Part shown: in pieces, positions 2,611 through 16,693 of the stretch
How positions within the stretch are numbered: the first letter of the stretch is position 1
How the letters are laid out: every line of letters begins with the position of its first letter
Source: Epibacterium sp. Ofav1-8
GTDB taxonomy: Bacteria > Pseudomonadota > Alphaproteobacteria > Rhodobacterales > Rhodobacteraceae
DNA: 64,000 bases
Direction: 5' to 3'
NCBI RefSeq assembly: GCF_022348185.1
Contig: NZ_JAKRFD010000002.1
Coordinates: 1-64,000, forward strand
Translations under genes and position numbers: made by a program
The notes under the pieces: model-generated
Database searches by the model: none
The model's input: the letters and a program-made list of their open reading frames with translations, nothing else
Told to the model about the DNA's origin: nothing

Positions 2611-3515
2611 TGGACTTCAACATCATTGCACCGATGCCCGTGAGCGAGGTGGAGCTGATTGCCTCGAACATCCCGGAGGATGATCATCCGGACTGGGACA
2701 GCGCCGCCACCTATGACCAGGGCGCGCGGGTGATCTCCACCCTGTCGCACCGGATCTATGAAAGCCTGGTGGACAACAACCAGGGCCATGACCCGCTGGG
2801 GGATGACGGCAGCCATTGGCTGGAGATCAGCGCCACCAACCGCTGGCGGGCCTTCGATCAGCGCCGCTCCAACACCGCAAAACAGGCGGACCGCATCACC
2901 TATTCGGTGGTGCCGACGCAGGATTGCGATGCGATTGCGCTCTTTGGTCTGACCGCGGGCACGGTGCGGATCGAGGTCTGGGACGGGGCGGCGCGCATCT
3001 ATGACCGGAGTTTTGCCATGGCCGACACCGGCCATGTGGTCAGCGCCTATACCTGGTTCTTCGGCGGCGTGGTCTATGCCCGCCAGAAGGTGCTGAACGG
3101 CTTTCCCGGTTATATCGGCCACCGCATCGACATCACCATCGATGCCACCGGTGCGGTGGCCGAGGTCGGCCATATCGTCATGGGGCGTAACAATCTCCTG
3201 GGGCGGGTGCGCAACCGGCCCACGGTCCAGTTCGTCAGCCACAGCCGCAAGGGCTATGACGACTTTGGCAATGAGATCCTGGTCAAGCGCGGCTCCACCC
3301 GCAAGGTCGACCTGTCGCTCCTGGTGCCGACGCATCAGGCGCAGCGGGTGATGGACATCGTGGCCGAGGTCGATGGTCTGGCGACGGCGTTTTACGTCTC
3401 CGGCGATGCCCCGTCCTTCGGGATCGAGGGCCTGGGATTTGTCGATGACCACAGCCAGCCCATCGATGTGGCCGGCGAGTCCGTCTTCCCCCTGATTTTG
3501 AAAACCTTAAAATAG
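2610..3515 (+). CDS. Phage tail/baseplate-region protein
   Basis: A 301-residue protein. I chose the ATG that overlaps the tape-measure stop as TGATG over an upstream TTG at 2574, because coupling is common in phage tail operons. The N-terminal part has the pattern 'YDQGARVISTLSHRIYES' then 'GSHWLEIS', resembling the small carbohydrate-binding (CBM5/12-like) modules of tail proteins. The remainder looks beta-rich with no further recognised domain. Its place between tape measure and tail fibre suggests a tail-tip or baseplate component. The exact role is not known from sequence. Confidence 0.65.
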   Translation: MDFNIIAPMPVSEVELIASNIPEDDHPDWDSAATYDQGARVISTLSHRIYESLVDNNQGHDPLGDDGSHWLEISATNRWRAFDQRRSNTAKQADRITYSVVPTQDCDAIALFGLTAGTVRIEVWDGAARIYDRSFAMADTGHVVSAYTWFFGGVVYARQKVLNGFPGYIGHRIDITIDATGAVAEVGHIVMGRNNLLGRVRNRPTVQFVSHSRKGYDDFGNEILVKRGSTRKVDLSLLVPTHQAQRVMDIVAEVDGLATAFYVSGDAPSFGIEGLGFVDDHSQPIDVAGESVFPLILKTLK

Positions 3516-3528
3516 GAGAGTGCCACAG

Positions 3529-4470
3529 ATGAGCATTCCTGGCTTCTCACCCTTCCCTGAGATCCCCCAGCGCAGCACGCCGGAGGCGGATTTTGACGCC
3601 AAGATGTACGCTCTGTTCCAGCACTTCGCGACCACCCATCGCAATGAGCTGCTGGCCTTTATCGAATTCTTGGAAACCAACTCCGTGGTCATCGGCGCGG
3701 CGCTGAATGGCACAACCATCGGTCTTAGCGATCCGGCGGCGGCGAAGTTCACCACGCTGGAGGCCGACAGCATTGGCGGTGCAGCGGTGCAGGCGAATGC
3801 GACCGATGCGAGCGACGGCAAACTGCTTGCGGTCGGGGCAGGGGGCATTCTGGCCACCAACCCGCCGAACCTCGCGGACCCCGCGCAACTGGATGTGCCC
3901 GCCGGTCTCTACAGCATTGCCGCGTCGGACGGCTGGCCCTTTGACGGCGCGCTCCTGCAACTGCGGCGGAACGCGGGGCGCGGGGTTCAGATCGCGGCGC
4001 GGGGATCGTCCTCGGCGCCCAATGCCTCCAGCGAGATCCTTGTGCGCACCTCCGGCAACAGCTTTGGCGGGTGGGCGCAGTTGATCCATGCCGAAAACCT
4101 TCTCGGCACTGTCTCGCAGTCCGGCGGCACGCCTACGGGCGCAGTGATCGAGCGCGGCAGCAACGCCAATGGCGAATACGTCCGCTTCGCCGATGGCACC
4201 CAGATCTGTTGTTCGGGAGACTGGTCGGAAGATGTGACGACGGCACAAGGGGCACTTTATCGCAGCGCGGCTCCGAAAATCTGGACGTTCCCGGCCTCGT
4301 TCTACTCGTCAAGCGGTTTGGTCGGCCATGTCGGCGCTACTGGAAACTCGCAAACCCATTGGGGGGTCGTGCGGACCACATCCCCATCTGACGCTCAGAT
4401 CACGATTTTTAGCCATTCGCAGTATACGGATCGCACGGTCCGCGCCACGGCAATTGGCCGCTGGTTCTGA
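3529..4470 (+). CDS. Phage tail fibre-like protein
   Basis: A 313-residue protein starting at the ATG about 10 nt after an AGGAG ribosome site (3514-3518). A GTG at 3520 would also be in frame but lies too close to that site. The N-terminus 'MSIPGFSPFPEIPQ' leads to Ala/Gly/Thr/Asn-rich low-complexity sequence. The C-terminal half contains 'NANGEYVRFADGTQICC', a pattern often seen in receptor-binding tail fibres, and ends in an aromatic beta-rich tail. The likely role is host recognition at the tail tip. The distal part is the section expected to vary between related phages. Confidence 0.65.
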   Translation: MSIPGFSPFPEIPQRSTPEADFDAKMYALFQHFATTHRNELLAFIEFLETNSVVIGAALNGTTIGLSDPAAAKFTTLEADSIGGAAVQANATDASDGKLLAVGAGGILATNPPNLADPAQLDVPAGLYSIAASDGWPFDGALLQLRRNAGRGVQIAARGSSSAPNASSEILVRTSGNSFGGWAQLIHAENLLGTVSQSGGTPTGAVIERGSNANGEYVRFADGTQICCSGDWSEDVTTAQGALYRSAAPKIWTFPASFYSSSGLVGHVGATGNSQTHWGVVRTTSPSDAQITIFSHSQYTDRTVRATAIGRWF

Positions 4471-4483
4471 AGGAGGACATCGC

Positions 4484-4807
4484 ATGCAAATCTCATTTAC
4501 CCCCATGCGCCTTGACCGGGCGCTGAGCGTCAGCCGCCAGGGCGATAGCCTGACAATCAATGGCGAGACCTTCGACTTCGCGCCGCTCCAGGAGGGCGAC
4601 GTGCTACCCCGCGCGGCTGTGGCCTGCGACTGGCTGGCCGCCGATGTGACCCGCGAGGGCGGCGTGATCCGCCTGACCCTGATCCTGCCCCATGGGCCGG
4701 ATGCGCCGGAGGCCACCCGCTTTCCGCAGCCCCTGAGCCTGACCGGCGACGGGCCGGTGCCGCTCCCCGCCTATCAGACCACCGCCACAGAGGACCCCGT
4801 GCCATGA
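4484..4807 (+). CDS. Small phage tail-region protein, unknown function
   Basis: A 107-residue protein preceded by a strong AGGAGG ribosome site (4471-4476). It looks beta-strand-rich ('MQISFTPMRLDRALSVSRQG', then 'GETFDFAPLQEGDVLP') and resembles small head-to-tail or fibre-accessory proteins of roseophages. No catalytic motif or membrane segment is visible. It overlaps the next gene by four bases (ATGA), which fits coupled translation of a structural or assembly pair. Confidence 0.55.
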   Translation: MQISFTPMRLDRALSVSRQGDSLTINGETFDFAPLQEGDVLPRAAVACDWLAADVTREGGVIRLTLILPHGPDAPEATRFPQPLSLTGDGPVPLPAYQTTATEDPVP

Positions 4808-5211
4808 GCACCATCGACTTCTCCCAGGTCATCACCGCCCAGGATCGCACCGAGGCGGCACGGGCACAGGCGCTGGCCGATCTGGCCGATCTGCGCTGGA
4901 AGCGCACACTTGCGGGCGTGACCCTGCCCGGCGGCCTGCACATGCCCGGCGATGAAACCACCCGCCTCGCGCTCTCCGGTGCGGTCAGCGCGCTTGACCA
5001 GGGCATGATCGCCGCGCCGGTCGCCTGGAAGACACCGGCAGGCTTTGTCGAGCTGACGCAAGAAGAGATCAAGGTCGCAGCGGCGGCAGTGGTGCAGCAT
5101 GTCCAGGCCTGCTTTGCCGCCGAGGCTGTAGTGGCCGCGCAGGTCGCAGCCAGCGCGGACCCGGCGGGGCTGGATGTTGAGGCGGCCTTTGACGCCGTAT
5201 TCGCAGGATAA
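4804..5211 (+). CDS. DUF4376-like phage protein
   Basis: A 135-residue protein whose ATG overlaps the preceding stop. 'LRWKRTLAGVTLPGGLHMPG' followed by 'DETTRLALSGAVSAL' and 'WKTPAGFVELTQEE' matches the pattern of DUF4376, a domain common at the C-termini of tail-fibre assembly proteins. The C-terminal third is Ala-rich helix. It is probably an accessory protein of the fibre genes immediately upstream. Confidence 0.6.
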   Translation: MSTIDFSQVITAQDRTEAARAQALADLADLRWKRTLAGVTLPGGLHMPGDETTRLALSGAVSALDQGMIAAPVAWKTPAGFVELTQEEIKVAAAAVVQHVQACFAAEAVVAAQVAASADPAGLDVEAAFDAVFAG

Positions 5212-5223
5212 GGGCACAGAAGA

Positions 5224-5550
5224 ATGGCCATGATTGAAAACAGCGATCGCGGGATCACCATGAACAAATCCCTTGCCTGGACGGTGGCCTGCGGGCTGGT
5301 CGGGGCAGGGCTCTGGGTCGGCATTCAGGTGGCGACCTTACGCGGGGAAACCGCCGGTCTGTCCAGGACCATCAACGCCCTGCGCGCGGATCTGACCGCC
5401 TCCGAAGCCCGCCAGGTGACCCTGACCGCCCGCGTGCGCACCAATGAAACCGCGCTCGCTCGCCAGGATGAACGCCTGTCGCTCATCCTCTCTACCCTCA
5501 ACAAAATCGACAACCGGCTCGAACGTATGGAACGCGCTCCGATCCGCTGA
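5224..5550 (+). CDS. Small membrane protein with coiled coil, phage lysis region
   Basis: A 108-residue protein if the first ATG is used. An in-frame ATG at 5260 (MNKSLAW) would place the membrane helix directly at the N-terminus and is a reasonable alternative. One transmembrane segment (about residues 16-34) is followed by a charged heptad-like helix ending 'LNKIDNRLERMERA'. One helix plus an exposed coiled coil just before an endolysin gene resembles inner-membrane spanins or accessory holins. No lipoprotein partner was seen, so the role is inferred from position. Confidence 0.5.
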   Translation: MAMIENSDRGITMNKSLAWTVACGLVGAGLWVGIQVATLRGETAGLSRTINALRADLTASEARQVTLTARVRTNETALARQDERLSLILSTLNKIDNRLERMERAPIR

Positions 5551-5626
5551 TCCACCCCCCGACATTCTGAAACCACCCCGTCTCGCCAAGGTCACCTTGC
5601 GCGGGGCGTTCTCATTTGGAGGCGGC

Positions 5627-6394
5627 ATGACCGACATTCTCACCTTTGACACCCTGGAAAAGATCACCGGCAAGATCCCTAAAGCCAGCGCGCAGGAGGC
5701 AAACGCCTGCTCGTTCCTGCTGTCGCTGAACACCTATGGCGGCGACCTCGGGCTGAACCGGCGGCACCGCCTGTCCTGTCTTCTGGGGCAGGTGCTGCTG
5801 GAAAGCGGGGCGTTTCGCTATGACCGCGAACTCTGGGGGCCGACACAGGCGCAGCAGCGCTATGACACCCGCACGGATCTCGGCAATACGCCGGAGCGCG
5901 ATGGCGATGGCTACCTGTTGCGTGGACGCGGGCCGATCCAGATCACCGGGCGCTGGAACTATCGGGCGTTCACCGCCTGGGCGCGTGGCCTCGATCATAC
6001 CGCGCCGGACTTTGAGGCCGATCCCGATGCGGTGCTGACCGATCCCTGGGAAGGGCTGGTTGCGCTTTGGTACTGGACCGTGCGGGGGCTGAACGCGCTG
6101 GCCGATCTTGGCGACGTGCGCGGGATCACCCGCAAGGTCAACGGCGGCTTCAACCATCTGGCAGAACGGCAAGCCTGGACCGACCGGGCACAGCTTGTCT
6201 TGCTTGGCCATGCGCCCACGGATGCGCGCGCCTTCCAGCGCTCTGCTGGCCTGACCGTGGACGGGGTAATCGGCTCGAAGACCCGCGCCGCGCTGCATCA
6301 AGCGCTGCTCACCCTGCCGCCTGTACCCACACTCCCGAAACCCGCGCCGCGCCCGAACTGGCTGCGGCGCGTCCTCGCCTTCCTCTGCAGCTAA
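5627..6394 (+). CDS. Phage endolysin, GH19-type with C-terminal peptidoglycan-binding domain
   Basis: A 255-residue protein starting at an ATG preceded by a GGAGG-type site. The catalytic part shows the GH19 (chitinase/lysozyme-like) pattern: 'GQVLLESGAFRYDRELWGP' with the likely general-acid Glu, then 'RGRGPIQITGRWNY'. It should cleave the glycan strands of peptidoglycan to free progeny phage. A short peptidoglycan-binding repeat follows ('FQRSAGLTVDGVIGSKTR'), then a Pro-rich linker and a short hydrophobic tail. There is no signal peptide, which fits holin-dependent release by the downstream holin-like gene. Confidence 0.85.
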   Translation: MTDILTFDTLEKITGKIPKASAQEANACSFLLSLNTYGGDLGLNRRHRLSCLLGQVLLESGAFRYDRELWGPTQAQQRYDTRTDLGNTPERDGDGYLLRGRGPIQITGRWNYRAFTAWARGLDHTAPDFEADPDAVLTDPWEGLVALWYWTVRGLNALADLGDVRGITRKVNGGFNHLAERQAWTDRAQLVLLGHAPTDARAFQRSAGLTVDGVIGSKTRAALHQALLTLPPVPTLPKPAPRPNWLRRVLAFLCS

Positions 6395-6438
6395 GCGGTG
6401 GTCGGCTTTCTTCTCCCTGAAATCGAAAGGATTGACTG

Positions 6439-6780
6439 ATGAATGACATCTTGCAGGAATTGCTGCCGGTGGCCCTGAGCGGGCTGAGCGTGCTGTTGAC
6501 GGCGCTGATCGGCAGCGCGGCCCATACCGCCAAACGGCGCTGGGGTCTCGACATCGAGGCCCGCCACCGCGACGCGCTGCACAGCGCCCTGATGAGCGGC
6601 ATCCGCGCCGGTCTGGAGCGCGGCCCCAATGAGGCGGCGGAGGTCCTGATCCGCGAGGCCGTGGATCACGCAAAGGCCTCTGTTCCCGACGCGATCCTGC
6701 GCCTGGGGCCGAACGATCAAGTGTTGCAGAACCTCGCCCGCAGCAAGCTCGCCAGTGTGGTGGGCGGCCTCATTCAATGA
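6439..6780 (+). CDS. Holin-like phage protein
   Basis: A 113-residue protein with one N-terminal hydrophobic helix (about residues 5-27) followed by a charged helical tail. Size, topology and position directly after the endolysin resemble LL-H-type phage holins, which permeabilise the inner membrane. Family assignment is by pattern only. It is the last clear phage gene before the terminator at 6790-6811. Confidence 0.55.
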   Translation: MNDILQELLPVALSGLSVLLTALIGSAAHTAKRRWGLDIEARHRDALHSALMSGIRAGLERGPNEAAEVLIREAVDHAKASVPDAILRLGPNDQVLQNLARSKLASVVGGLIQ

Positions 6781-6789
6781 CGAAAACGG

Positions 6790-6811
6790 ACTGGCGACAA
6801 TCGTCGCCAGT
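6790..6811 (+). terminator. Terminator closing the prophage lysis operon
   Basis: Perfect 9-bp stem ACTGGCGAC / GTCGCCAGT with loop AATC, followed by a pyrimidine-rich stretch (TCGTTCCTTT). It lies 10 nt after the holin-like stop codon and marks the boundary between phage late genes and cargo. Confidence 0.75.
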
Positions 6812-7351
6812 TCGTTCCTTTAGTGCAGCAAGCTCGAACGGCGGCAAAGCGCAGTTAGCGTCATTCTCAAACTCGGCCCTTTGGCGCAACCAGCCGAGGT
6901 TTTTTACTGCCGCGCGGCCCGTGGTTCCTGCCGTTTGCTGCGACTGCGAGGTTCCGGAGCTGGTGAGTTCACACAGTGCCGAACAAACCGGCCTTTCGTT
7001 TATGCCACTATTGCTGACTCGGAAATCCCTCGCTCCCGCGGTAGGAGACTTATGACAGTGCGGCAAATTTCCCGTCCTTCGGTCATTCGGGCAAGCAGAA
7101 ATCGACGAAGGCTCAATGCCTGATACTGCGCGCATTCGACCGATAAGTCGCGAAGATCCAGGCTCGCACTACCCTTCACACAATCGCTACATAGTTCTTG
7201 GCATGCCTGTCAAAGAACCCGTAGGGTAACTCTGTATGGGGATCGGGGAAGCACGTCCGTTACACGATTGTTGAAACAAATCCGGTGTTATTCAGAATTG
7301 CTATCGCGCAGTGTGTCACAACGCGCTTGAAAAAAAGAGATTGGATTCATA
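6812..7351. other. Intergenic stretch between phage lysis genes and cargo, no convincing gene
   Basis: Open frames exist on both strands (for example minus 6770-7135), but none has a good ribosome site or recognisable protein. The segment near 6845-6875 ('gcaaagcgcagttagcgtcatt') read in reverse resembles part of 15190-15230. Both may be decayed copies of a dispersed non-coding element. The last 90 bases are AT-rich and could hold the promoter of the gene at 7352. Confidence 0.4.
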
Positions 7352-8176
7352 ATGGTAAGCGTAATCAAAGATAACATGCAAAGAATTTTTTCTGACGTTA
7401 TCTCAGCCGATTGCTGGTTCAGCAGCGTCGAAGGCGAGGAAAGCAGGTACAGGGTCTTTGCAGACATCAGCTTTTCGCAGGCCTGCCTAAGCGGACAAAG
7501 CGAAGCCCCGATCTACTTTGATTTGTCAGTTAAATCGGCTAGTGTTCGGTTGTTTCTTCATGATCGCGAGGGTTTTTTTGTACCCAAAATGAGCGTAAGG
7601 GAGGACGATCATCTTGTGGAAATCACTTCTGAAAACAAAATCTTGTCCTCAAAAGAGGTTGAGGCCAGCTTGAACGTTTCGCTGCTTCCTAAAAGAGGCG
7701 GCTCGGAGCTACCATTAAACGCAGGGATGAATTTTCAGGGGTCAGAAGTACTTACTGGGGATTCTGTGCTGGCGACAAAGACGAACAGGACGATCCAAAC
7801 AAGGTCATTGGTCCAGCCGAATGGCCAGTACCAGTGGTTGCTAAAGCCGCTGGTCGTGAATGAACTACTTGGGCGGGCTTGGTCAAGAAGCAGTTCCCTT
7901 GCTGACTTTATTGCTGTCAACGCTGAAAGCTTGGACAATAATCCGGTGCGTGTCACTGTTACGTGCAAAAATGAAGACCTTAACATTAGCAATATTCGTG
8001 CAAAATGTGGCGCGGACGAATGGTTGAAAATATTTAAATCTTCCCCAAAGAGAGCAGCTGCCGCACACTATATTAGGCGGAAGCTGTTGGAGGGTGGGCT
8101 TGAGTTCCGAGACGTAGAAGACCCTTATTGTGAAGTTACGTTGGCTGACGTGATGCTCTCGGAAGCACAGCTATGA
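7352..8176 (+). CDS. Unknown cargo protein coupled to a CNBD protein
   Basis: A 274-residue protein I do not recognise. It starts at an ATG after AT-rich sequence with a weak AAAGAGA site. The first two thirds look beta-rich (alternating hydrophobics, 'YRVFADISFSQACLSGQ', 'SVRLFLHDREGFFVPKMSV'). The last third is helical and charged, with 'WLKIFKSSPKRAAAAHYIRR'. There is no signal peptide, membrane helix or clear catalytic motif. Base composition is clearly more AT-rich than the phage genes. Its stop overlaps the next start (ATGA), so it is made with, and probably works with, the cyclic-nucleotide-binding-like protein. Confidence 0.75.
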   Translation: MVSVIKDNMQRIFSDVISADCWFSSVEGEESRYRVFADISFSQACLSGQSEAPIYFDLSVKSASVRLFLHDREGFFVPKMSVREDDHLVEITSENKILSSKEVEASLNVSLLPKRGGSELPLNAGMNFQGSEVLTGDSVLATKTNRTIQTRSLVQPNGQYQWLLKPLVVNELLGRAWSRSSSLADFIAVNAESLDNNPVRVTVTCKNEDLNISNIRAKCGADEWLKIFKSSPKRAAAAHYIRRKLLEGGLEFRDVEDPYCEVTLADVMLSEAQL

Positions 8177-8847
8177 AAGAAAACTACTTGAAAGCCGCGT
8201 ACAGCCTCCTTGTGGCAAATACAGATGACCTCAGGGAACTAGCTGTTTTAGCGGGTGAGGACCCAGCCACTTTCTACGAATATTGTGATTTTTCCGGAGT
8301 TGATCTCCGCGGCCAAGATTTTACAGGAGTCAGTACTCTTGGAGCGAATTTTATGGGAGCATTGATTGATGAAACTACTAAGTTTGATGAAGGAAATATT
8401 GTCGATGAGGCATTTGAAAGCTCGAATGACTTGAAAATTCGTCTGCTAAGGGAGTGTGATTTGTTCACCCACGCATCCGAAGACGTTTTAGAAGAATTGT
8501 TCAGTTTTTCTCGTTGGGTAATGTTTGATGCAGAAGATGTTGTCTTTGAAAAAGGCGAATCTTCCGCTTCTGGTGCATACCTTGTCGTTGAAGGTGAAGC
8601 CGACTTAATGCTGCCGGATGAGCATGGGGTAAAAAGACTGATTGTGAAAATTGGACCGAATAGACTTGTCGGCGAACTCGGCTTGATTCGTGGAGAGCCT
8701 CGCCAGTTGGCAATGGTGGCGAGCAAACCCCTTAAGTGTATTCTAATTGACGGAAAAGGGTTTAATGAATTGCTGCGAAAAGAAGGGGAGTTTTGCTTTG
8801 GGGTGCTGCAGGAAGTTGCAGGATATGTTTCCAGTCAATCTGGTTGA
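8173..8847 (+). CDS. Pentapeptide-repeat plus cyclic-nucleotide-binding-domain protein
   Basis: A 224-residue protein in three parts: an N-terminal helical stretch (1-35), a short pentapeptide-repeat run ('CDFSGVDLRGQDFTGV', about 38-65), and a complete cNMP-binding fold (about 96-215). The phosphate-binding cassette reads 'GELGLIRGEPRQLAMV' (167-182) and keeps the Gly-Glu-Leu and Pro-Arg expected of ligand-binding members. There is no helix-turn-helix after it, so it is not a Crp-type DNA-binding regulator. It is coupled to the unknown upstream protein. A role as sensor or adaptor, possibly in phage defence, is inference. Confidence 0.75.
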   Translation: MKENYLKAAYSLLVANTDDLRELAVLAGEDPATFYEYCDFSGVDLRGQDFTGVSTLGANFMGALIDETTKFDEGNIVDEAFESSNDLKIRLLRECDLFTHASEDVLEELFSFSRWVMFDAEDVVFEKGESSASGAYLVVEGEADLMLPDEHGVKRLIVKIGPNRLVGELGLIRGEPRQLAMVASKPLKCILIDGKGFNELLRKEGEFCFGVLQEVAGYVSSQSG

Positions 8848-9015
8848 TGAAAGCAATAAAGTACCACAGGTTTTGTCGCTTCTTTCTTGGAATGTTTGGT
8901 GTCTAGATATCTTCGGCGTTTGCTCGAACTTGAGGCGACAACCAAGTGAGCTTTGCGGGATTCTGCAAATTCTGCTTCTGCGCTTCGCTGACATCCGTGC
9001 CAAACGCAGTATCGC

Positions 9016-9855
9016 CTAGTGTCAGGATGCATTGATTTCTCGAGCGTTGCGTGATCCACGGCCCCGAAAACGGAGCGGTGACATGAGCGACCTTTTCTGG
9101 CTGAACGACGAGCAGATGGCCAAATGGGCCCCTTTTTTCCCTAAGTCGCATGGCAAACCAAGAGCCGACGACAGAAGGGTTCTTAGCGGGATTATCTTCA
9201 TCAACCGTAATGGGTTACGGTGGCGCGATGGGCCTGCCGCCTATGGTCCACACAAGACATTATACAGCCGATGGAAGCGTTGGAGCGAGAAAGGTATTTT
9301 CGCGCGGATGATGACCGGGTTGGCTGCGGAACACGGCGAGGAAAAGACCGTGATGATTGACGCAAACTACCTGAAGGCACACCGAACCGCGACCAGCATG
9401 GCCGCGAAAAAGGGGGGGGGCGTGGCCGCCTGATCGGTTGGACAAAGGCGGTATGAACACCAAACTCCATGCCATCTGTGAAAGTCTAGGACGACCTATC
9501 GACCTCTTTGCCACCGCCGGGCAGGTGAGCGATTATATCGGCGCGCGAGCTCTGCTCAGCGGCTTGCCAAACGTCAAATGGCTGCTCGGGGATCGCGGCG
9601 ATGACGCTGACTGGTTCAGAGAAGAGTAGCAACACAAAGGGATACGTCCCTGTATCCCCGGGAGAACGCAACGAAAGACGCCCGTCAAATACGACAAACG
9701 CTGTTACAAGCGGCGCAATCGCATCGAGATCATATTCGGCAGGCTTAAGGATTGGAGACGCGTGGCGACACGCTACGTCTGCTGTCCCAAGGTCTTCCTC
9801 TCGGCCATCGCTCTCGCCGCCCTCGTAATCTACTGGTTATGAATCCTGACCCTAG
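9016..9855 (+). mobile_element. IS5-family (IS427-type) insertion sequence, decayed
   Basis: The element spans about 9020-9851 (832 bp). Imperfect inverted ends read inward as TGTCAGGATGCAT on the left and GGTCAGGATTCAT on the right. Both are flanked by CTAG (9016-9019 and 9852-9855), the 4-bp target duplication expected for this group. It lies between the CNBD gene and the KAP genes and does not visibly interrupt either. The inner transposase is broken, so the copy is not autonomous. Confidence 0.85.
9083..9842 (+). pseudogene. IS5-family transposase, frameshifted and with an internal stop
   Basis: The N-terminal part runs from ATG 9083 ('MSDLFWLNDEQMAKWAPFFP') to a frameshift in a nine-G run at 9412-9420. 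The frame then changes again near 9438 and continues to a stop in codon 'tag' at 9627-9629. Beyond it the same frame keeps the C-terminal DDE part ('YKRRNRIEIIFGRLKDW') to TGA at 9840-9842. The catalytic residues are scattered over the pieces: Asp in 'VMIDANYLKAH', Asp in 'LLGDRGDDAD', Glu in 'RIEIIFG'. Some IS427 elements use programmed frameshifting, but two shifts plus a nonsense codon indicate true decay. Confidence 0.85.
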
Positions 9856-9945
9856 GCTATTGCTAAACTTGTCGCACTCTAGTGAAGTCAGTACCAAATT
9901 GAAAAAGGAGCCGCAATTAGAATCCTTTTCAAGTTGAGAGGTGTT

Positions 9946-11427
9946 TTATTCGTCTCCCGACGGTCCCGAAATGTTCGCCATTTGATCTAGTATTCGAGCG
10001 TACTCTTGTCCGACAGATTCTTCCCTGCGGTTCACTTGGGTCACTCTGAATAGCTCCTTGAGCTCAGCATAATTCTTTTTCTGAATCCAGTGTTCAAGGC
10101 TATTTTGGGGATCTGAGTTGTTAAAGTTGTCAATTGAATTGCGCTCGATATCTCTCCACACGTCTTTGTACTTCTTTTGAAAAAATCTTCCCCCCCCTTC
10201 TCGCGACCTGGAAGTGAAGGCGAAAGTTATGTTCGCGAGATCACAATTGTCCAGCTGTGAGTCTGAAAGGTTGAAGTGTCTTTTATATACCTGTGGCAGG
10301 AGACTCGCTATATCAATTTTCCTAGTGCTTACAGGCATTGTAGCTACAAAGGTGCCAATGATTTCAACTATTTGCCTTATGTCGCGGGCTTCGGTTTTGC
10401 CTTTGCTAAAGCATTCGGATAAAAATGTGATAACGTCGTATCCTGGTAGGGGTACAAAGTTTTCAACACTTAGCCCATTTCTCTTAAGCGCAAAATCGAT
10501 AAGCTGGTTTTTTGGCGAGTCTTGGAAGTGGTAGGTCCGATCAACGAAACGTTTCAGGTAGCGTTCACCGTCAAATTCAGAGCCGTATACACCTTTGATA
10601 GCATTCGCTAGCTGTCGAGTGTCTGTTCCAAGAATGAAGACGAAGTTTTCAAGGGAAAAGATGTGCTTTACTCGTTCTAAAAGTTCTATGGCATAGCTCG
10701 GTCGGCACCTGTCCAGTTCATCGATTAGGATGAAAATCGGCGTTTCTATGCCATCTTGATTTAGAACGTCCTTACCGATTTCGGTGAGTTGGCACCGGAA
10801 ATTTTCTTGAACCTCTTTCTGTAGCCGAAATTGCGATAGCAACTCTGAACCGGCTGTATCTACCGCGCTATCGACAGCTATTCGAATGGATTCTTCAATT
10901 TTGTTGCTTTCACCGTTTCCGAAATCAGTATTGGGATCATCGTTTTCCCATAGCTCGGAAATACCCTCAATGGCTTCTTGCCCGATATACTTTACAGCCC
11001 AGTGCTTCCCGCCGGTAAACAAAGCCCCGCCAATGATTCTGATCGCTGACTTCCTGAAGGGAGCAGTCCTCTCCAGCATTACTTCAGGTGTTACTTTTTC
11101 AGACAAGCGAGCGGAAAGCTCAGCCTGAATCTCATCGACCACGGTCATGAACGGATCGTTGGAGTGGTCATTCTCCCAGGCATTCACATAGACAGAAATA
11201 TGGCCGTGCGCCTCAAGGTGCTTCTTGAAACGGTTCAGGAAGAACGACTTACCAGCGCCCCAGTTAGCATCCAAGTTAAGGACGTATGTCCGTGGCTCGC
11301 CTGCATTCTCACGCAAGTTTAAATGCCCGATGGTGAAGGTCCTGAGTATCTCAGCATCCTTGGACCTGTTTAGGGCGTCTCCCTCCCAAATCTTGGCCAT
11401 CGTAGTTGTGTGTTTTTCTTCTACCAT
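9946..11427 (-). CDS. KAP-family P-loop NTPase, soluble form
   Basis: A 493-residue protein. I chose the ATG at 11427 (MVEEKHTTT), preceded by GAGGGCGAG; a later ATG at 11400 is possible. Walker A is 'ANWGAGKS' (54-61). Walker B is 'IFILIDELDR' (231-240), followed by 'CRPSYAIELLERVKHIF' and 'FILGTDTRQLANAIKG', the typical KAP arrangement. No transmembrane helix is evident. KAP NTPases include PifA of plasmid F, which excludes phage T7, so a defence role is plausible. It is transcribed behind the larger KAP gene after a 145-nt gap. The gene is AT-rich like the rest of the cargo. Confidence 0.85.
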   Translation of the reverse strand: MVEEKHTTTMAKIWEGDALNRSKDAEILRTFTIGHLNLRENAGEPRTYVLNLDANWGAGKSFFLNRFKKHLEAHGHISVYVNAWENDHSNDPFMTVVDEIQAELSARLSEKVTPEVMLERTAPFRKSAIRIIGGALFTGGKHWAVKYIGQEAIEGISELWENDDPNTDFGNGESNKIEESIRIAVDSAVDTAGSELLSQFRLQKEVQENFRCQLTEIGKDVLNQDGIETPIFILIDELDRCRPSYAIELLERVKHIFSLENFVFILGTDTRQLANAIKGVYGSEFDGERYLKRFVDRTYHFQDSPKNQLIDFALKRNGLSVENFVPLPGYDVITFLSECFSKGKTEARDIRQIVEIIGTFVATMPVSTRKIDIASLLPQVYKRHFNLSDSQLDNCDLANITFAFTSRSREGGGRFFQKKYKDVWRDIERNSIDNFNNSDPQNSLEHWIQKKNYAELKELFRVTQVNRREESVGQEYARILDQMANISGPSGDE

Positions 11428-11572
11428 GCTCGCCCTCAAATAGTTTGCTTAAAGGTAGGTCGTCCGAGGTAAGAGGAACCGCGCTCAGACCCCGATTGGT
11501 ACAACAGCGCTGCAGAACTCAACCAGGTATGAGATTGCGGATTAATTCAAGCGTTACTTGCCTTTGTGCCGG

Positions 11573-14500
11573 TTATGCTCCGTTTTGGTTGCCGTCGGAT
11601 GGGTCATTACCCAAGGGCTTCAAATTAATACCTAGCTGTCCGGCTAGGATATTAATGCGATGAGCCTCAACCTCGGAACGAACGCTTTCAATCACTTCTA
11701 CAAAGTGGCCTCTTTGTTCGTCGGTAACCTTTTCGAGCGCGGACCTCAACGATGTAGAATGCCTCTCAACAAAAGCCACACCTTTCTCTCTCGCGGATGC
11801 GATGGCCGGCGTGGCAAAATTCCTTACTTTTACATCATCCGATGACTTGGAATAAATTTGGTCGACAAGTTCTGGAAATACTTCTTGTACGTATCCGAAT
11901 GTTTCTTTGTTTGTGGAGACGTTGGCCATACGGTCCGCGATAGCCTTAGGCATCGCCGCTCGTGCCCTAGGCGGTATCGATTTCAGGACTTGCTCAGACA
12001 AATTTGGCCTACTGTCCAGCTGAGCTTGTCCAGACATCAACTCAACCACCAGATCAGAAAAAGGCTCTTGGAACCTATGTGCGGGCAGCTTGAAGTCTCT
12101 CAGCGTCGCCTCAACCGACAATACCGTAAGCACAACACTGTCGGAAGCTAGGTGGTTTTTCCAGTTCTCGTCCAAAGAATCCGTAAGAGCTTTTTCCACA
12201 GCGGTGTGGAAAAGCTTCCAACCGTCTTCTTCACGATTAGCCGTATCCCGCAACAGTGCGATGGGTATCGAGCCAAGATCTATATTCTCCAATTGATCAC
12301 TTCGAACAATTCCGCTGGTGTTTGTGAGAACTTGATCGATCCTATCTCCAAAGATTTTATGTATCTGATCGTAGTGGTTAAGCAGTGTTGCTATAGGCAA
12401 AGAATACAGGTCATCTCTCTCACTTAGGCGTTCGAAAACGGAGGAATAGATCCTTTGATAGGGTGAAGCCTCGGCAGCTAATCCTATCCAGCGAGAGACC
12501 ATTTTCTGGCTAATAACATAAGAAGCCAAATGATCGATCACTGCATCCGAAAACTCGACGGAACCACTTAATACTTGACTTAGCCAATGTCGTGCTGGGT
12601 GAAGATTGCCAAAAGGTGGTTGGTTTGTGTTTCCGCCAACTTCAAACGTCGCCGTTTTGAGATTCTGCAGCGTCAACCATACCGTTGCGGCCAAGGCTCC
12701 ATCCGCTTCACTTGACTGTTTTGTGGCGTATGCATGCCATGCCAGAGTGCCGTTGTTTGAAAGCGCTCCAAGCAATTCATTGGCTTTCTTTAGACTTGAA
12801 ATTTCCCCATAAGTAGCAATGAGATTTTCCGCGCGACAGGCGAAATAGTCTTCGTCACCACCGAAGGTTTGGCTCGTGAGCTGATCGTGCTGGTGTTGCA
12901 GAAGCGCCAAAAGCTCAGATGCATTCAATGATTTCGCCGACTTTAGCTGCTTGAAAACGTAGTGAAAAGTTAATGGATCGTCTGAACAGATCTCTTTGAG
13001 GGGCTCCAAGAATGCCTTCGAAGAAATGGAATGCTTGAACCGTGAGAACGAAAGGCCAATTTCATCACAATCATAGGCAACTCCGAGTACAAACCGTACA
13101 TTTGGGGGCAACTGTAACGCATTGAGCAATGGATCGGCGAACGCTTCGACCCTTCTATCGGTGTTATTAATCAGCATGCCGAGCGACTTGACCCAAATAT
13201 TGCCATCGTCGAAAGTCGCTTCCTTAGCGTCAAAGCAGTTCGTCATCCATTCAGCCAAGCGAAGTGACACAGACGAACGCTGATTGTTTGGGCATAGATC
13301 AACTATCGCGCGTAGGCTCTGCACGTCTTCGGGGGTCTCAATTTCTAGGGTACTCAGATCTTTCAGCCCCGAAAGGTAGAGCGCGAGCACATGAGTCGAG
13401 GTCTGAACATCTAGAGCAATGGAACTTAGATTTTTTGCAACTTGGGCATAGGTGACTGCTGATTCCTTTGCCCAACTTGATGCCTGTGTCTCCAAAATCC
13501 CTATCAGAACCTGTGGGAATCCCGGGGCACGCGAGACGTTTTTAATTTGTTCGGGGTCTTTGTCCACAAGCGCTGCAGAGACAGGACCTTCCAGCAAGAC
13601 TTGGTAGGCCAACTGTGGCTCAACGTTGTAGGCAATCGCCGCTAGATGCCGATTCAAGTCAACATCATTCGAATTGACTAAATACGGTGCCAGCTGGCTC
13701 GATAAATTGTTTAGTGATTGCGGCTTGCGTTCTATATCCTCTCTGAAAACTTGAAAAATGGCTATCGTGTCTAGAGGTATTCTTCCTCCCCATTGAGCAA
13801 ATATGCTCGAAATTTCATTGATGAATGAAATGACTTGTCTTGGTGTGACGGGGCGACCTTGTAGATGTGTTGACCGCTGAAAGATTTTTGTTACGTTGTA
13901 GATTGCGTTTTTATCATTGAAATTGGGCAGCCCTTTTCGAAGTGTGGCTTCAACATGCGCGGATATATTCGAAGCAACCGGAGGAGACACCCGAAATATT
14001 TCATCGAAGGTTTTTCGGAATAAGTCCTTTTCGGAATAATTGTTATTCTTTCCATCAGATATCGCCTCGAAAACGTGATCTCTGTCGTATGGAACGATCG
14101 CAGTGCACGCGCGTGGCCCCGTGTTCAGGCTGGCCGGATCGCCAGAAAAAACTGCCCGTATATCTGCCCAAGCGTTCGAAATACCATCCTTTGGAAGGCG
14201 GTCGATGTTGTCGAATACGACGACAATTCGGTCATTATCTTCTTGAAGAACCTGCAGAATATCCAGTAGTGTGATCTCAAATTCATACTCGTTTGGATCT
14301 TCTTCTCGAATGTTTTGGGTGGTTGTTTCATTCTCTTGCTGTTTGGTGAATAGCGACGCCGACATTGAGAGTGCGTCGGTAAACTTTATGCTTTCATCCT
14401 CGGCGCGTTTCCAAACTCTGACAATGAAAGCTACATAAAGGAAACCGACCAGAAGAATTGCCACGGACCAAGCCGGTACACAGAATCCGAAAATCGAAAG

Positions 14501-15025
14501 CGACAAGGCTGAACCGCTCGTGGGGTTAATCGAGAATGGGCTGAGCCAAGCAAAAGCCAAAGGCAGCATTGGTCCAAGTAAAATGAAGAGAACCCCAAAC
14601 CAATCAAGTCGTCTGAAAGATTTAGACTCTGTTGTAACGGTTCTGTCACGAACCCTGTCGAGTAGTTCATTAAGTTTATCAACGCGGGACTTGTCGTCTG
14701 TGAATTCGCGCTTTCCCCAGTCTATCAGTTTCTCAAGGAAGGTGCGGCGAAAGGGGCTCGTTTGGTTGCTCCACATATCAAAAGTGAAGAACCGATAGTT
14801 TCTTTTTTTTATCTCAGACAATTCGTTGGCGGCGAGTTGAACAACTGTTGATTTCCCTGCCCCCCAATCTCCCTCCAACCCAATAGAACGATCTTCGTTG
14901 TCAAATTCTACAATGGTCCTGGCCAGTTGATGAGCCGTCCGTAGGTGGCCTTTACCTTCGAAAACGTCCTCGCGAGCCGGTTGATCGACGACTATGTGGC
15001 GCTCAAAAATTTCTTCTTCACTCAT
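11573..15025 (-). CDS. Large membrane-anchored KAP-family P-loop NTPase
   Basis: A 1150-residue protein if the ATG at 15025 (MSEEEIFERH) is the start; the frame stays open to 15130. Walker A is 'GDWGAGKST' (52-60). Two hydrophobic helices (about 143-162 and 183-203) are inserted between it and Walker B 'IVVVFDNIDRL' (267-277), the classic KAP topology that anchors the NTPase to the inner membrane. The NTPase part reaches roughly residue 450. The remaining 700 residues are helical with no recognised domain and may form a sensor or effector scaffold. It precedes the 493-residue KAP gene on the same strand, suggesting a two-ATPase system. Function is unproven; an anti-phage role is inferred from family and location. 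Confidence 0.85.
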   Translation of the reverse strand: MSEEEIFERHIVVDQPAREDVFEGKGHLRTAHQLARTIVEFDNEDRSIGLEGDWGAGKSTVVQLAANELSEIKKRNYRFFTFDMWSNQTSPFRRTFLEKLIDWGKREFTDDKSRVDKLNELLDRVRDRTVTTESKSFRRLDWFGVLFILLGPMLPLAFAWLSPFSINPTSGSALSLSIFGFCVPAWSVAILLVGFLYVAFIVRVWKRAEDESIKFTDALSMSASLFTKQQENETTTQNIREEDPNEYEFEITLLDILQVLQEDNDRIVVVFDNIDRLPKDGISNAWADIRAVFSGDPASLNTGPRACTAIVPYDRDHVFEAISDGKNNNYSEKDLFRKTFDEIFRVSPPVASNISAHVEATLRKGLPNFNDKNAIYNVTKIFQRSTHLQGRPVTPRQVISFINEISSIFAQWGGRIPLDTIAIFQVFREDIERKPQSLNNLSSQLAPYLVNSNDVDLNRHLAAIAYNVEPQLAYQVLLEGPVSAALVDKDPEQIKNVSRAPGFPQVLIGILETQASSWAKESAVTYAQVAKNLSSIALDVQTSTHVLALYLSGLKDLSTLEIETPEDVQSLRAIVDLCPNNQRSSVSLRLAEWMTNCFDAKEATFDDGNIWVKSLGMLINNTDRRVEAFADPLLNALQLPPNVRFVLGVAYDCDEIGLSFSRFKHSISSKAFLEPLKEICSDDPLTFHYVFKQLKSAKSLNASELLALLQHQHDQLTSQTFGGDEDYFACRAENLIATYGEISSLKKANELLGALSNNGTLAWHAYATKQSSEADGALAATVWLTLQNLKTATFEVGGNTNQPPFGNLHPARHWLSQVLSGSVEFSDAVIDHLASYVISQKMVSRWIGLAAEASPYQRIYSSVFERLSERDDLYSLPIATLLNHYDQIHKIFGDRIDQVLTNTSGIVRSDQLENIDLGSIPIALLRDTANREEDGWKLFHTAVEKALTDSLDENWKNHLASDSVVLTVLSVEATLRDFKLPAHRFQEPFSDLVVELMSGQAQLDSRPNLSEQVLKSIPPRARAAMPKAIADRMANVSTNKETFGYVQEVFPELVDQIYSKSSDDVKVRNFATPAIASAREKGVAFVERHSTSLRSALEKVTDEQRGHFVEVIESVRSEVEAHRINILAGQLGINLKPLGNDPSDGNQNGA

Positions 15026-15506
15026 TGAAGTATCCGTATTGCAATCGCTCTGTTTAGAGTTGTGTCGCCAACCTATCCGCCTTCGAGAACAAAGACAAAA
15101 CTTATTGTAGTTCAACCAATCTACGGTCATTTCAAGTGCGGCGAATGTCTCGGAAGCGCGCTACTACCGCAGCATTGGCTGGGCCAGGTCAATGGCCAGT
15201 ATGGGCCGCAATGGTCGCTAACTCCGCTTTGCGGTCCTTGAGCCAGAACATAGGAAGATCGACTTTACGCCCTTTCGTTAACACGCAGCTCCAGCTGCTA
15301 TATGCACGATGGATTTGGAAGGTTTGGTTTCTCGTCCAAGAAAACCTGAATGAAGCAGGGATGGTCTGAGTAGACTCGTCTAAGGTCGCGACCTAATCAT
15401 GAGGCGCCAACTCTTTGAGCGCCGTACTCGCCGTTCTGCTCGGACCGCATTGATCCGAATATTTAGAAGTTCTACTTATGTTCCGTCATGCGAAGCGGAG
15501 CAGTGA
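15026..15506. other. Intergenic stretch upstream of the KAP genes, no convincing gene
   Basis: It must contain the promoter of the leftward KAP operon, but no clear promoter boxes stand out. Around 15150-15320 the sequence has the look of a decayed dispersed intergenic element and partly resembles 6845-6875 in inverted orientation. Open frames here have no ribosome site or recognisable product. Confidence 0.35.
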
Positions 15507-15731
15507 ATGCCTCTTTTTCTTCACATCTGGTGTGAGTGCGGTCACGTTGGCAAGATCGAGGTAAGCCTCCACGACAACCATCATGCAGTTTTTCGGAAAG
15601 CGGGATGTAGGATCCTTCGCTCCGCGGGGTACCGGGGAATTCCTGTCAAGGCCGTGCTGGGGTGGGATCACGAATGCGATTTAGAGGGGGAGGTTGACGT
15701 GTTGAGGGGACGTGTGCCTCACATCAGCTGA
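15507..15731 (+). CDS. Small Cys/His-containing protein, unknown
   Basis: A 74-residue frame starting at ATG with a weak CGGAGC site upstream. The N-terminus 'MPLFLHIWCECGHVGKIEV' has a C-x-C-G-H cluster that could be half of a zinc ribbon, followed by 'NHHAVFRKAGCRILRSAG'. Only a few metal-ligand candidates follow, so zinc binding is uncertain. It lies in the cargo zone, pointing toward the attachment site. It may be a real small prophage gene or chance. Confidence 0.4.
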   Translation: MPLFLHIWCECGHVGKIEVSLHDNHHAVFRKAGCRILRSAGYRGIPVKAVLGWDHECDLEGEVDVLRGRVPHIS

Positions 15732-15878
15732 ATGCTACGCTGCTCGATCTGACCTTGACCTGTTCTCGCGCTCCGACGCTTCAGCTCTCGCGCTGGTCCT
15801 GTTACGGATGCTGGCGGCAAAGCAAAGCGCTGATAGAGCTCGCAAGTCGTGAAACAGGCCGAGCTGAGGGGAGAGTTG

Positions 15879-16070
15879 ATGAGCGTAGACAAAATCAAGG
15901 TTGAGCGGCTGGAGAATGGGCAGGTCAGCGTTCGAAAGGGAACTTGGTCCGATGTCTTCCCCGAAGACCGGAGAGAGCCATGGGCGGCATGGTATGAGCG
16001 GATGCATGTCGAATATAGCTATCTCGGGTATCTGGATATGGCGAAAGCTCTGCGGGATCTACCAACATGA
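15879..16070 (+). CDS. Small acidic prophage-edge protein, unknown
   Basis: A 63-residue protein starting at ATG after an AGGGGAGAG ribosome site. The sequence 'MSVDKIKVERLENGQVSVRK' and 'WAAWYERMHVEYSYLGYLDM' has a normal protein composition and no membrane helix. A hairpin terminator follows its stop within 4 nt. A good ribosome site plus a terminator make this a convincing small gene. It is the last gene before the tRNA fragment, where excisionases or small regulators often sit, but no such homology is visible. Confidence 0.6.
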   Translation: MSVDKIKVERLENGQVSVRKGTWSDVFPEDRREPWAAWYERMHVEYSYLGYLDMAKALRDLPT

Positions 16071-16073
16071 TAA

Positions 16074-16100
16074 CCCCGGACTTCATCGTGAGGTCCGGGG
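16074..16100 (+). terminator. Terminator after the small gene at 15879
   Basis: Perfect 8-bp stem CCCCGGAC / GTCCGGGG with an 11-nt loop, then CTCATTTTCT. It lies directly downstream of the stop codon and 50 nt before the tRNA fragment. Confidence 0.7.
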
Positions 16101-16149
16101 CTCATTTTCTCGTGGCACCAACACTCTGAAAATAAAGGCAAACCTACCT

Positions 16150-16203
16150 ACTTAAAATCCCCAGGCTTTAGCCGTGCGGGTTCGAGTCCCGCCGCCCGTA
16201 CCA
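16150..16203 (+). other. 3' fragment of tRNA-Leu(TAA): attachment site of the prophage/island
   Basis: The segment reads as the 3' part of a class II tRNA: anticodon loop CTTAAAAT (anticodon TAA), a variable arm with GGC-TTTA-GCC, the T arm GCGGG-TTCGAGT-CCCGC, an acceptor strand CGCCCGT, discriminator A and an encoded CCA. The 5' half (acceptor, D arm) is absent: the preceding bases are unrelated AT-rich sequence. This is the usual scar of tyrosine-recombinase integration into a tRNA gene, with the intact gene at the other end. I therefore place the right attachment site here. Confidence 0.85.
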
Positions 16204-16693
16204 ATCTGAAGATAATAGATTTTTCCCAACAATGAGTTTGCCTTCAAAAGCGTTCGGTACACGAGTTGGTACAGGTTGCGTTCTCAGCCTCGTCGTTTCC
16301 TGATTTCTACGATCTTCGACGCCCCACCAGAGCGGTCCCGGGGGGAGGTGGTGCCCTCAGTGTGCTGGTCTACGGGCTTCAGGGGGGTGGGACCCATCTG
16401 TGGGGTTTTCTGCGGGCCGAGAAAGGTGTGTTCTGTGCGGCCCTGTGTATGGTGAAAACGATCCGGTCAACCTTGGGGCGGCGGACCGGCAAAAGGGTAA
16501 TACGCGCGGGGCGATGCCCGTTGGCGCGGTTGCCAAGGCTGGCGCCCACTGAGGCAGATTGGAAAGTGATCGACCGCCTGCGGGCCTTGGCGGAACCTGG
16601 CGAAAACGGGGGCGTGAAGGGATAAACCCTTTCGTCGTCCCGTGAGAGGACCGGCAGCAGGATCTTTGCTGCCAGCCAAGGTGACTCCGCGCG
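16204..16693. other. Chromosomal intergenic stretch after the attachment site
   Basis: An open frame on the plus strand (16266-16625) has no ribosome site and an unlikely composition, so I do not call it. A 7-bp hairpin GGCAGCA / TGCTGCC (16653-16673) just before the alcohol dehydrogenase stop codon may serve as its terminator on the minus strand, though the T-run is weak. Nothing else stands out. Confidence 0.4.

Follow-up and report, generated by a model that had tools for sequence, protein, structure and literature searches.

Two adjacent KAP NTPases in the variable cargo of an Epibacterium prophage as probable independent anti-phage defences

Bacteria, and the phages resident in them, frequently employ ATPases of the KAP kind against other phages. 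Tmn is a KAP NTPase with two transmembrane (TM) domains that blocks several phages (PMC11846954, citing Gao 2020); phages escaped it through a missense change in a DNA-modification gene, and deletion of that gene gave no escape (PMC11846954). The tmn gene is often found on IncHI1 plasmids of Salmonella (PMC11305592). PifA of plasmid F, a KAP NTPase that excludes phage, is connected by the title of a cited paper with permeability lesions during infection; QatA of qatABCD combines a KAP NTPase with a C-terminal domain of its own (PMC12424860). PADLOC's PDC-S20, a one-gene phage defence candidate, is a computed one and is not named in the papers that a search listed. We investigated two neighboring KAP genes in 64,000 nucleotides of Epibacterium sp. 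Ofav1-8 (NCBI RefSeq assembly GCF_022348185.1, contig NZ_JAKRFD010000002.1, positions 1 to 64,000; hereafter the window, meaning the whole stretch analyzed). With moderate confidence, which extends to the mechanism proposed below, we read them as anti-phage defences of one gene each, acting independently and borne by one prophage as lysogeny cargo; the large protein would be a relative of Tmn and the small one a relative of PDC-S20.

Both genes are intact open reading frames (ORFs) for KAP P-loop NTPases on the minus strand, with no internal stop. The upstream gene (11573..15025) encodes a large KAP with TM segments (TM-KAP) of 1150 aa, the downstream gene (9946..11427) a small soluble KAP of 493 aa; 145 bp lie between the stop of the large and the start of the small gene. 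An alternative start at 15130 would give a large protein of 1185 aa, and the 1150-aa start is preferred because Met occupies that position in 39 of 39 aligned relatives. The small gene's start at 11427 is preceded by GAGGG, which resembles a ribosome site; no clear stretch of that kind was seen upstream of the large gene's start. A promoter and terminator scan gave counts at or near chance (6 vs. 6.2 and 11 vs. 7.7) and is uninformative on an operon. Walker A and a Walker B with a D..DR motif are present in both proteins, and both exceed the 20-bit cut-off of Pfam KAP_NTPase (PF07693) (large: 2.4e-17, 63.6 bits, residues 31-407; small: 7.6e-38, 130.9 bits). An earlier model-made reading of the bare letters (the sequence-only reading) had placed two KAP NTPases here on one strand, and the ORFs, Pfam matches and Walker motifs bear it out.

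The large protein has a modeled core at about residues 10-450, with Walker A GDWGAGKS at residues 52-59 (14849..14872, minus strand) and Walker B plus KAP motif IVVVFDNIDRL at residues 267-277 (14195..14227, minus strand). Walker A, D-N-x-D-R at Walker B, T-P-R and N403 are invariant in an alignment of 39 relatives. Between the two Walker motifs, and within the NTPase domain, lie two TM-like segments (residues 140-166 and 172-208; 14402..14608, minus strand), which agrees with the two-helix membrane insertion of the sequence-only reading. TM-like here means a Kyte-Doolittle mean >1.6, a rough hydropathy count, by which 50 of 55 family proteins, and likewise 71 of 79 genome loci, have at least two such segments. 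The AlphaFold2 (AF2) model (predicted local distance difference test, pLDDT, 83.6 overall) places helices at 142-161 and 182-211, with low confidence in that region. Its tail, mostly at a pLDDT of about 90, is an alpha-helical (HEAT/ARM-like) repeat at residues 415-1130 (11636..13783, minus strand), and Foldseek returned mostly helical-repeat scaffolds at low TM-score. The C-terminus of some 700 residues that had been called unknown is as long as described and can be modeled as alpha-helical repeats. Searching solved structures by sequence yielded no informative match, and a viral fold library searched with the large model returned one KAP protein from a giant-virus sample, the remaining rows being weak. 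Against the two closest relatives with available DNA, a custom script gave dN/dS of 0.110/0.750 (L024, 80% identity) and 0.138/0.895 (L025, 77% identity); at about 0.15, this ratio indicates a gene maintained by purifying selection.

By the published description, the large KAP resembles Tmn in architecture (a KAP NTPase carrying two TM segments), in being encoded by a single gene and in lying on mobile DNA, and differs in being prophage-borne here; judged from its architecture, it probably belongs to the Tmn-like kind of TM-KAP. A profile comparison aligned its family over 975 columns (probability 100, 15% identity) with seven KAP proteins headed by L130, a KAP of Enterobacteriaceae plasmids found in 138 of 72,556 plasmid records (122 over 80% of its length) and in 8 of 5426 E. 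coli genomes (6 over 80%). Taken by itself, L130 matched the hidden Markov model (HMM) of the large family marginally in the tail (i-E 0.044), and its relatives L131-L133 did so at 1e-4, 9e-6 and 2e-4. Three L130-type plasmids examined carry the replicons IncHI2A, IncHI2A and IncHI1B. Because these are IncHI replicons and tmn is often on IncHI1 plasmids (PMC11305592), L130 may be Tmn, in which case the large KAP of the window may be its distant relative; against this, Tmn is reported to be among the systems that PADLOC calls (PMC12479173), yet a Tmn-named profile matched none of the window's large KAP, L130 and the other KAPs scanned. The plasmid-type KAP is also seen split into two coding sequences in an E. 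coli chromosome (L169 5896-9138) and interrupted by an insertion sequence (IS) in an Enterobacter plasmid (L271 2980-7095).

The small KAP has 0 TM segments by hydropathy, as expected of the soluble protein previously described, and its Walker A, ANWGAGKS at residues 54-61 (11245..11268, minus strand), starts with A instead of G. PADLOC PDC-S20 matches it over most of its length (5.4e-73, 245 bits; residues 8-377 to profile 10-342 of 464, for a protein of 493), and we file it, on this profile match, as a further member of PDC-S20. It also matches PHROG 8614, a group without an assigned function. The small KAP or a relative is present in 24 of 196 genomes of the order; at E 1e-5, 5 of 50,697 phage records and 54 of 72,556 plasmids match, 0 of the latter over 80% of its length. 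We collected 99 loci of small-KAP relatives, 80 viral (80 kept of 118 viral-contig stretches) and 19 from Rhodobacterales genomes. In many of the viral loci, neighboring genes look like an integrase, a repressor or a late control gene of the P2 type; an integrase-like ORF is present in 32 of the 80 viral loci, and within 1 kb on the same strand in 16 of the 99 (a count that leaves out three entries with distances below -2000). The small KAP is thus common in prophages and often near an integrase. Superinfection immunity is not a new idea for prophage KAPs, since it was earlier proposed for prophage-borne KAP proteins in Campylobacter (PMC3995785). The window's own genome holds a second PDC-S20-like KAP of 27% identity (L127 8052-9335); some 7 kb away from it lies the lysis module of the window's prophage in a truncated copy.

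The sequence-only reading had not recognized the pair as a named system, although each protein resembles something described, the large one Tmn by architecture and the small one PDC-S20. It had also invoked PifA, which both resemble as KAP NTPases. Identity with PifA is rejected for both, as the best profile stretch is 26-105 for the large protein and 206-298 for the small one, of 720 positions; for the large KAP the match covers residues 26-105 only, and in neither protein does it extend past a portion of the KAP core. The same profile matched a KAP gene on a viral contig over its full length (L110 9950-12223, a positive control), and PifA is therefore also carried by prophage-like contigs. 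QatA was rejected likewise: the two KAPs match its profile weakly, at 29.2 and 47.4 bits vs. the cut-off of 600 of NCBIfam NF041923. In fold, among the families listed in the fold tables, both models are closest to RdrA of RADAR (ranked first by VIA-align) by a small margin, other RdrA chains tying with ORC/Cdc6; both differ from RdrA in sequence (12-13% identity), and the large one has TM-like segments. No RdrB-like (adenosine deaminase) gene was among the window proteins scanned, a set that covers part of the neighboring ORFs.

The window starts at a contig end (contig C22) inside phage tail genes, and the prophage's tail and lysis genes, with part of the tape measure, run from 118 to 6780 on the plus strand by PHROGs, bordering the cargo; they include the endolysin (5444-6394, plus strand) and end with the last lysis-cassette gene (6439-6780, plus strand). 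A variable cargo region follows (6840..16149, defined by GC and sibling comparison), which holds a cyclic-nucleotide (cNMP) gene pair, an IS4/5-type ORF and both KAPs. The prophage ends on the right with attR, which consists of the final 54 nt of a tRNA-Leu(TAA) gene (16150-16203, plus strand). GC is 0.66 in the phage part, 0.62-0.63 in host DNA and 0.463-0.473 in the cNMP pair and the two KAPs, the KAP genes themselves having 0.473 and 0.465. In seven sibling stretches, similarity to the window ends at 6747-6839, around the stop of the last lysis gene at 6780. The tRNA-Leu fragment, the GC contrast of 0.47 vs. 0.66 and the end of sibling similarity support the earlier placement of the KAP genes in prophage cargo. 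No intact tRNA was found within the window; an intact tRNA-Leu lies near the end of contig C31 of the same genome (L161 7392-7475), and its match with the window extends some 60 bp beyond the tRNA (115 columns, 88.7%). It is followed by an ORF that reads by eye as a tyrosine recombinase (L161 7567-8799), and later ORFs read by eye as phage early genes (HNH, small terminase). On the simplest reading we infer one prophage whose attL and integrase lie on C31 and whose attR is that at 16150-16203, on contigs that are not joined; the split can be attributed to the sibling copies that the genome holds. Counting the window's own copy and a truncated one, this genome has five endolysin matches; G201 has two, G208 has one, and G200 has a single weak match.

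What lies behind the lysis genes differs among the siblings (ten of their proteins were scanned, a part of their ORFs). In a congener (G208 contig C87, L185 5317-13694), three ORFs of GC 0.62-0.65 are followed by an FRG protein (PDC-S15), a GmrSD_N protein, Olokun (OloA 3.2e-84, OloB 7.3e-175), a C5 methyltransferase and Vsr; this region is called corresponding from its lysis side. At the far end of C22 (L180 11579-16197), an AAA protein of 423 aa and an AAA/TPR protein of 1117 aa stand behind the lysis cassette, before a tRNA-Gly; this set is NLR-like in outline. Of two siblings in G201, that on C5 carries a protein that has a T5orf172 domain and matches PDC-S57 weakly, and that on C12 a DUF4238 protein with 0 PADLOC matches, followed by a stretch matching the window's attR (16072-16213, 77%). 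The sibling on C36 of the window's own genome showed no cargo: its lysis genes lead straight into a stretch matching window 9706-9849, and then come genes that look host-like by eye. The sibling on C20 is only 4.2 kb, so its cargo is not readable, and that on C1 is rearranged, with a truncated lysis module. Given this differing content, the KAPs occupy a variable region that in one sibling holds a firmly named defence system, Olokun.

Relatives of the large KAP are spread broadly, from Alphaproteobacteria to Bacteroidetes, spirochaetes and others. The large KAP itself is in 3 of the 196 genomes of the order; at E 1e-5 it had 0 matches in 50,697 phage records and matched 106 of 72,556 plasmids, 1 over 80% of its length. 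Our 87 loci comprise 79 from genomes (from the best 80 of 193 genome-contig stretches) and 8 viral ones. Clustering of ORFs of at least 80 aa within 8 kb revealed no constant partner of that size in the 87 loci, smaller partners not having been looked for. The widest cluster was recombinase-like (15 of 87 loci), and clusters of type I restriction-modification (RM)-like subunits spanned 5-6 loci; a short-chain-dehydrogenase-like cluster (5 loci) is a sign of chromosomal background. The HsdM/S/R, integrase, repressor, P2-like gpD, short-chain dehydrogenase and replication initiator clusters were named from reading the sequences, not from profiles. With HMMs seeded from the KAP loci themselves, the 79 genome loci gave integrase-like (15), hsd-like (7), methyltransferase-like (4) and helicase-like (3) neighbors, and 15 random Rhodobacterales stretches gave 0, a weak control. 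Literature searches, none of which combined restriction-operon terms with KAP, listed nothing that names the large family apart from Tmn.

That the two KAPs form one unnamed paired system, as previously suggested, is rejected by co-occurrence counts and sequence comparison, and the sequence-only reading's own proposed check, co-occurrence in other genomes, came out negative. With HMMs made from 30 relatives of the small KAP and 55 of the large one, a small-KAP relative stood beside the large KAP in 0 of 87 loci (the sole small-KAP match being PifA, L110's own KAP), and a large-KAP match beside small-KAP relatives in 0 of 99; flanks of at least 2 kb downstream were available in 72 of the 87, and of at least 4 kb upstream in 83 of the 99. 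The window's own genome is the sole one of the order's 196 in which both genes occur. BLASTP found no significant match between the two proteins (best patch at Walker A, E 0.13), and a comparison of the two family profiles aligned 193 columns (probability 88). A true two-component system confined to this lineage, in which a soluble KAP sensor ring docks on and activates the membrane KAP, would fit the shared strand with its 145-bp gap, the similarly low GC and the RdrA-like fold of both proteins; we consider it very improbable in view of these counts and of L024 and L025, the nearest relatives of the large KAP, in whose flanking stretches the small KAP was not found. Two separate one-gene defences probably came to lie side by side by chance.

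PrrC acts as a guard when a phage inhibits restriction, and the large KAP could likewise guard a type I or other restriction system. In three loci of distant family members (L092, L096, L100) the order is hsdM-hsdS-KAP-hsdR on a single strand, where the hsdS frame abuts or overlaps that of the KAP and the gap to hsdR is 3 to about 1090 bases; hsdS-KAP recurs in L082 and L084, which look near-identical, and hsd-like genes adjoin or lie near the KAP in L026 (48% identity, the nearest hsd-linked relative) and L045. A large methyltransferase-like gene lies near the KAP in L056, L061, L080 and L091, accompanied in three of these by a helicase-like gene; such loci may be another defence set. The RM-linked KAPs are scattered in the tip order of a 77-protein tree. 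We nevertheless regard a guard role for the large KAP as quite unlikely, for hsd-like genes occur in only 7 of 79 genome loci, most relatives have no such neighbor, and 0 RM proteins are among the eight window proteins scanned. The wider proposition that TM-KAPs with helical tails are general membrane-tethered infection sensors of the RdrA kind, solo on prophages and plasmids (Tmn-like) and also placed between the hsdS and hsdR genes of type I restriction operons as a second line, firing when restriction fails or is inhibited, is an improbable one in our estimation. Non-defence cargo, serving prophage maintenance, replication control or partitioning, is suggested by the ORC/Cdc6 chains that score level with most RdrA chains and by a neighbor that reads by eye as a replication initiator in four large-KAP loci. 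It is set against relatives inside type I RM-like operons or beside the methyltransferase-helicase set, small-KAP relatives that are a listed phage defence candidate, the Olokun of the sibling prophage, and the C36 sibling in the same genome, which has neither KAP behind its lysis cassette; we judge it unlikely.

A defence role for each KAP as an independent single gene is likely, as supported by the neighbors and the known kinds, and from these we infer the activity of both. Both KAPs would be made in the lysogen. The large one, presumably an inner-membrane KAP NTPase, would work like Tmn and loosely like PifA: its helical tail may sense a phage product or a phage-disturbed host process, the NTPase core may then assemble into an RdrA-like ring driven by NTP, and the output would disturb the membrane or replication, so that infection stops. 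The permeability lesions linked to PifA and the escape from Tmn through a DNA-modification gene are leads for output and trigger. The small one may be a cytosolic RdrA-like NTPase of the PDC-S20 kind that excludes other phages from the lysogen. If this holds, the large KAP represents a branch of Tmn-like TM-KAPs that has diverged, and the sibling-variable cargo region is a cheap place to seek further defences. A restriction-guard role can then be tested directly through those family members that lie within hsd operons, and the core's likeness to RdrA is a structural reason to ask whether Tmn forms a ring.

Two further elements share the cargo region. A low-GC two-gene unit at 7352-8847 encodes a 224-aa pentapeptide and cyclic-nucleotide-binding protein and a 274-aa protein with 0 matches in four libraries; this cNMP gene pair is possibly another defence or signaling cargo. 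Between it and the KAP genes, at 9032-9433, lies an ORF with an IS4/5-type DUF4096 transposase domain.
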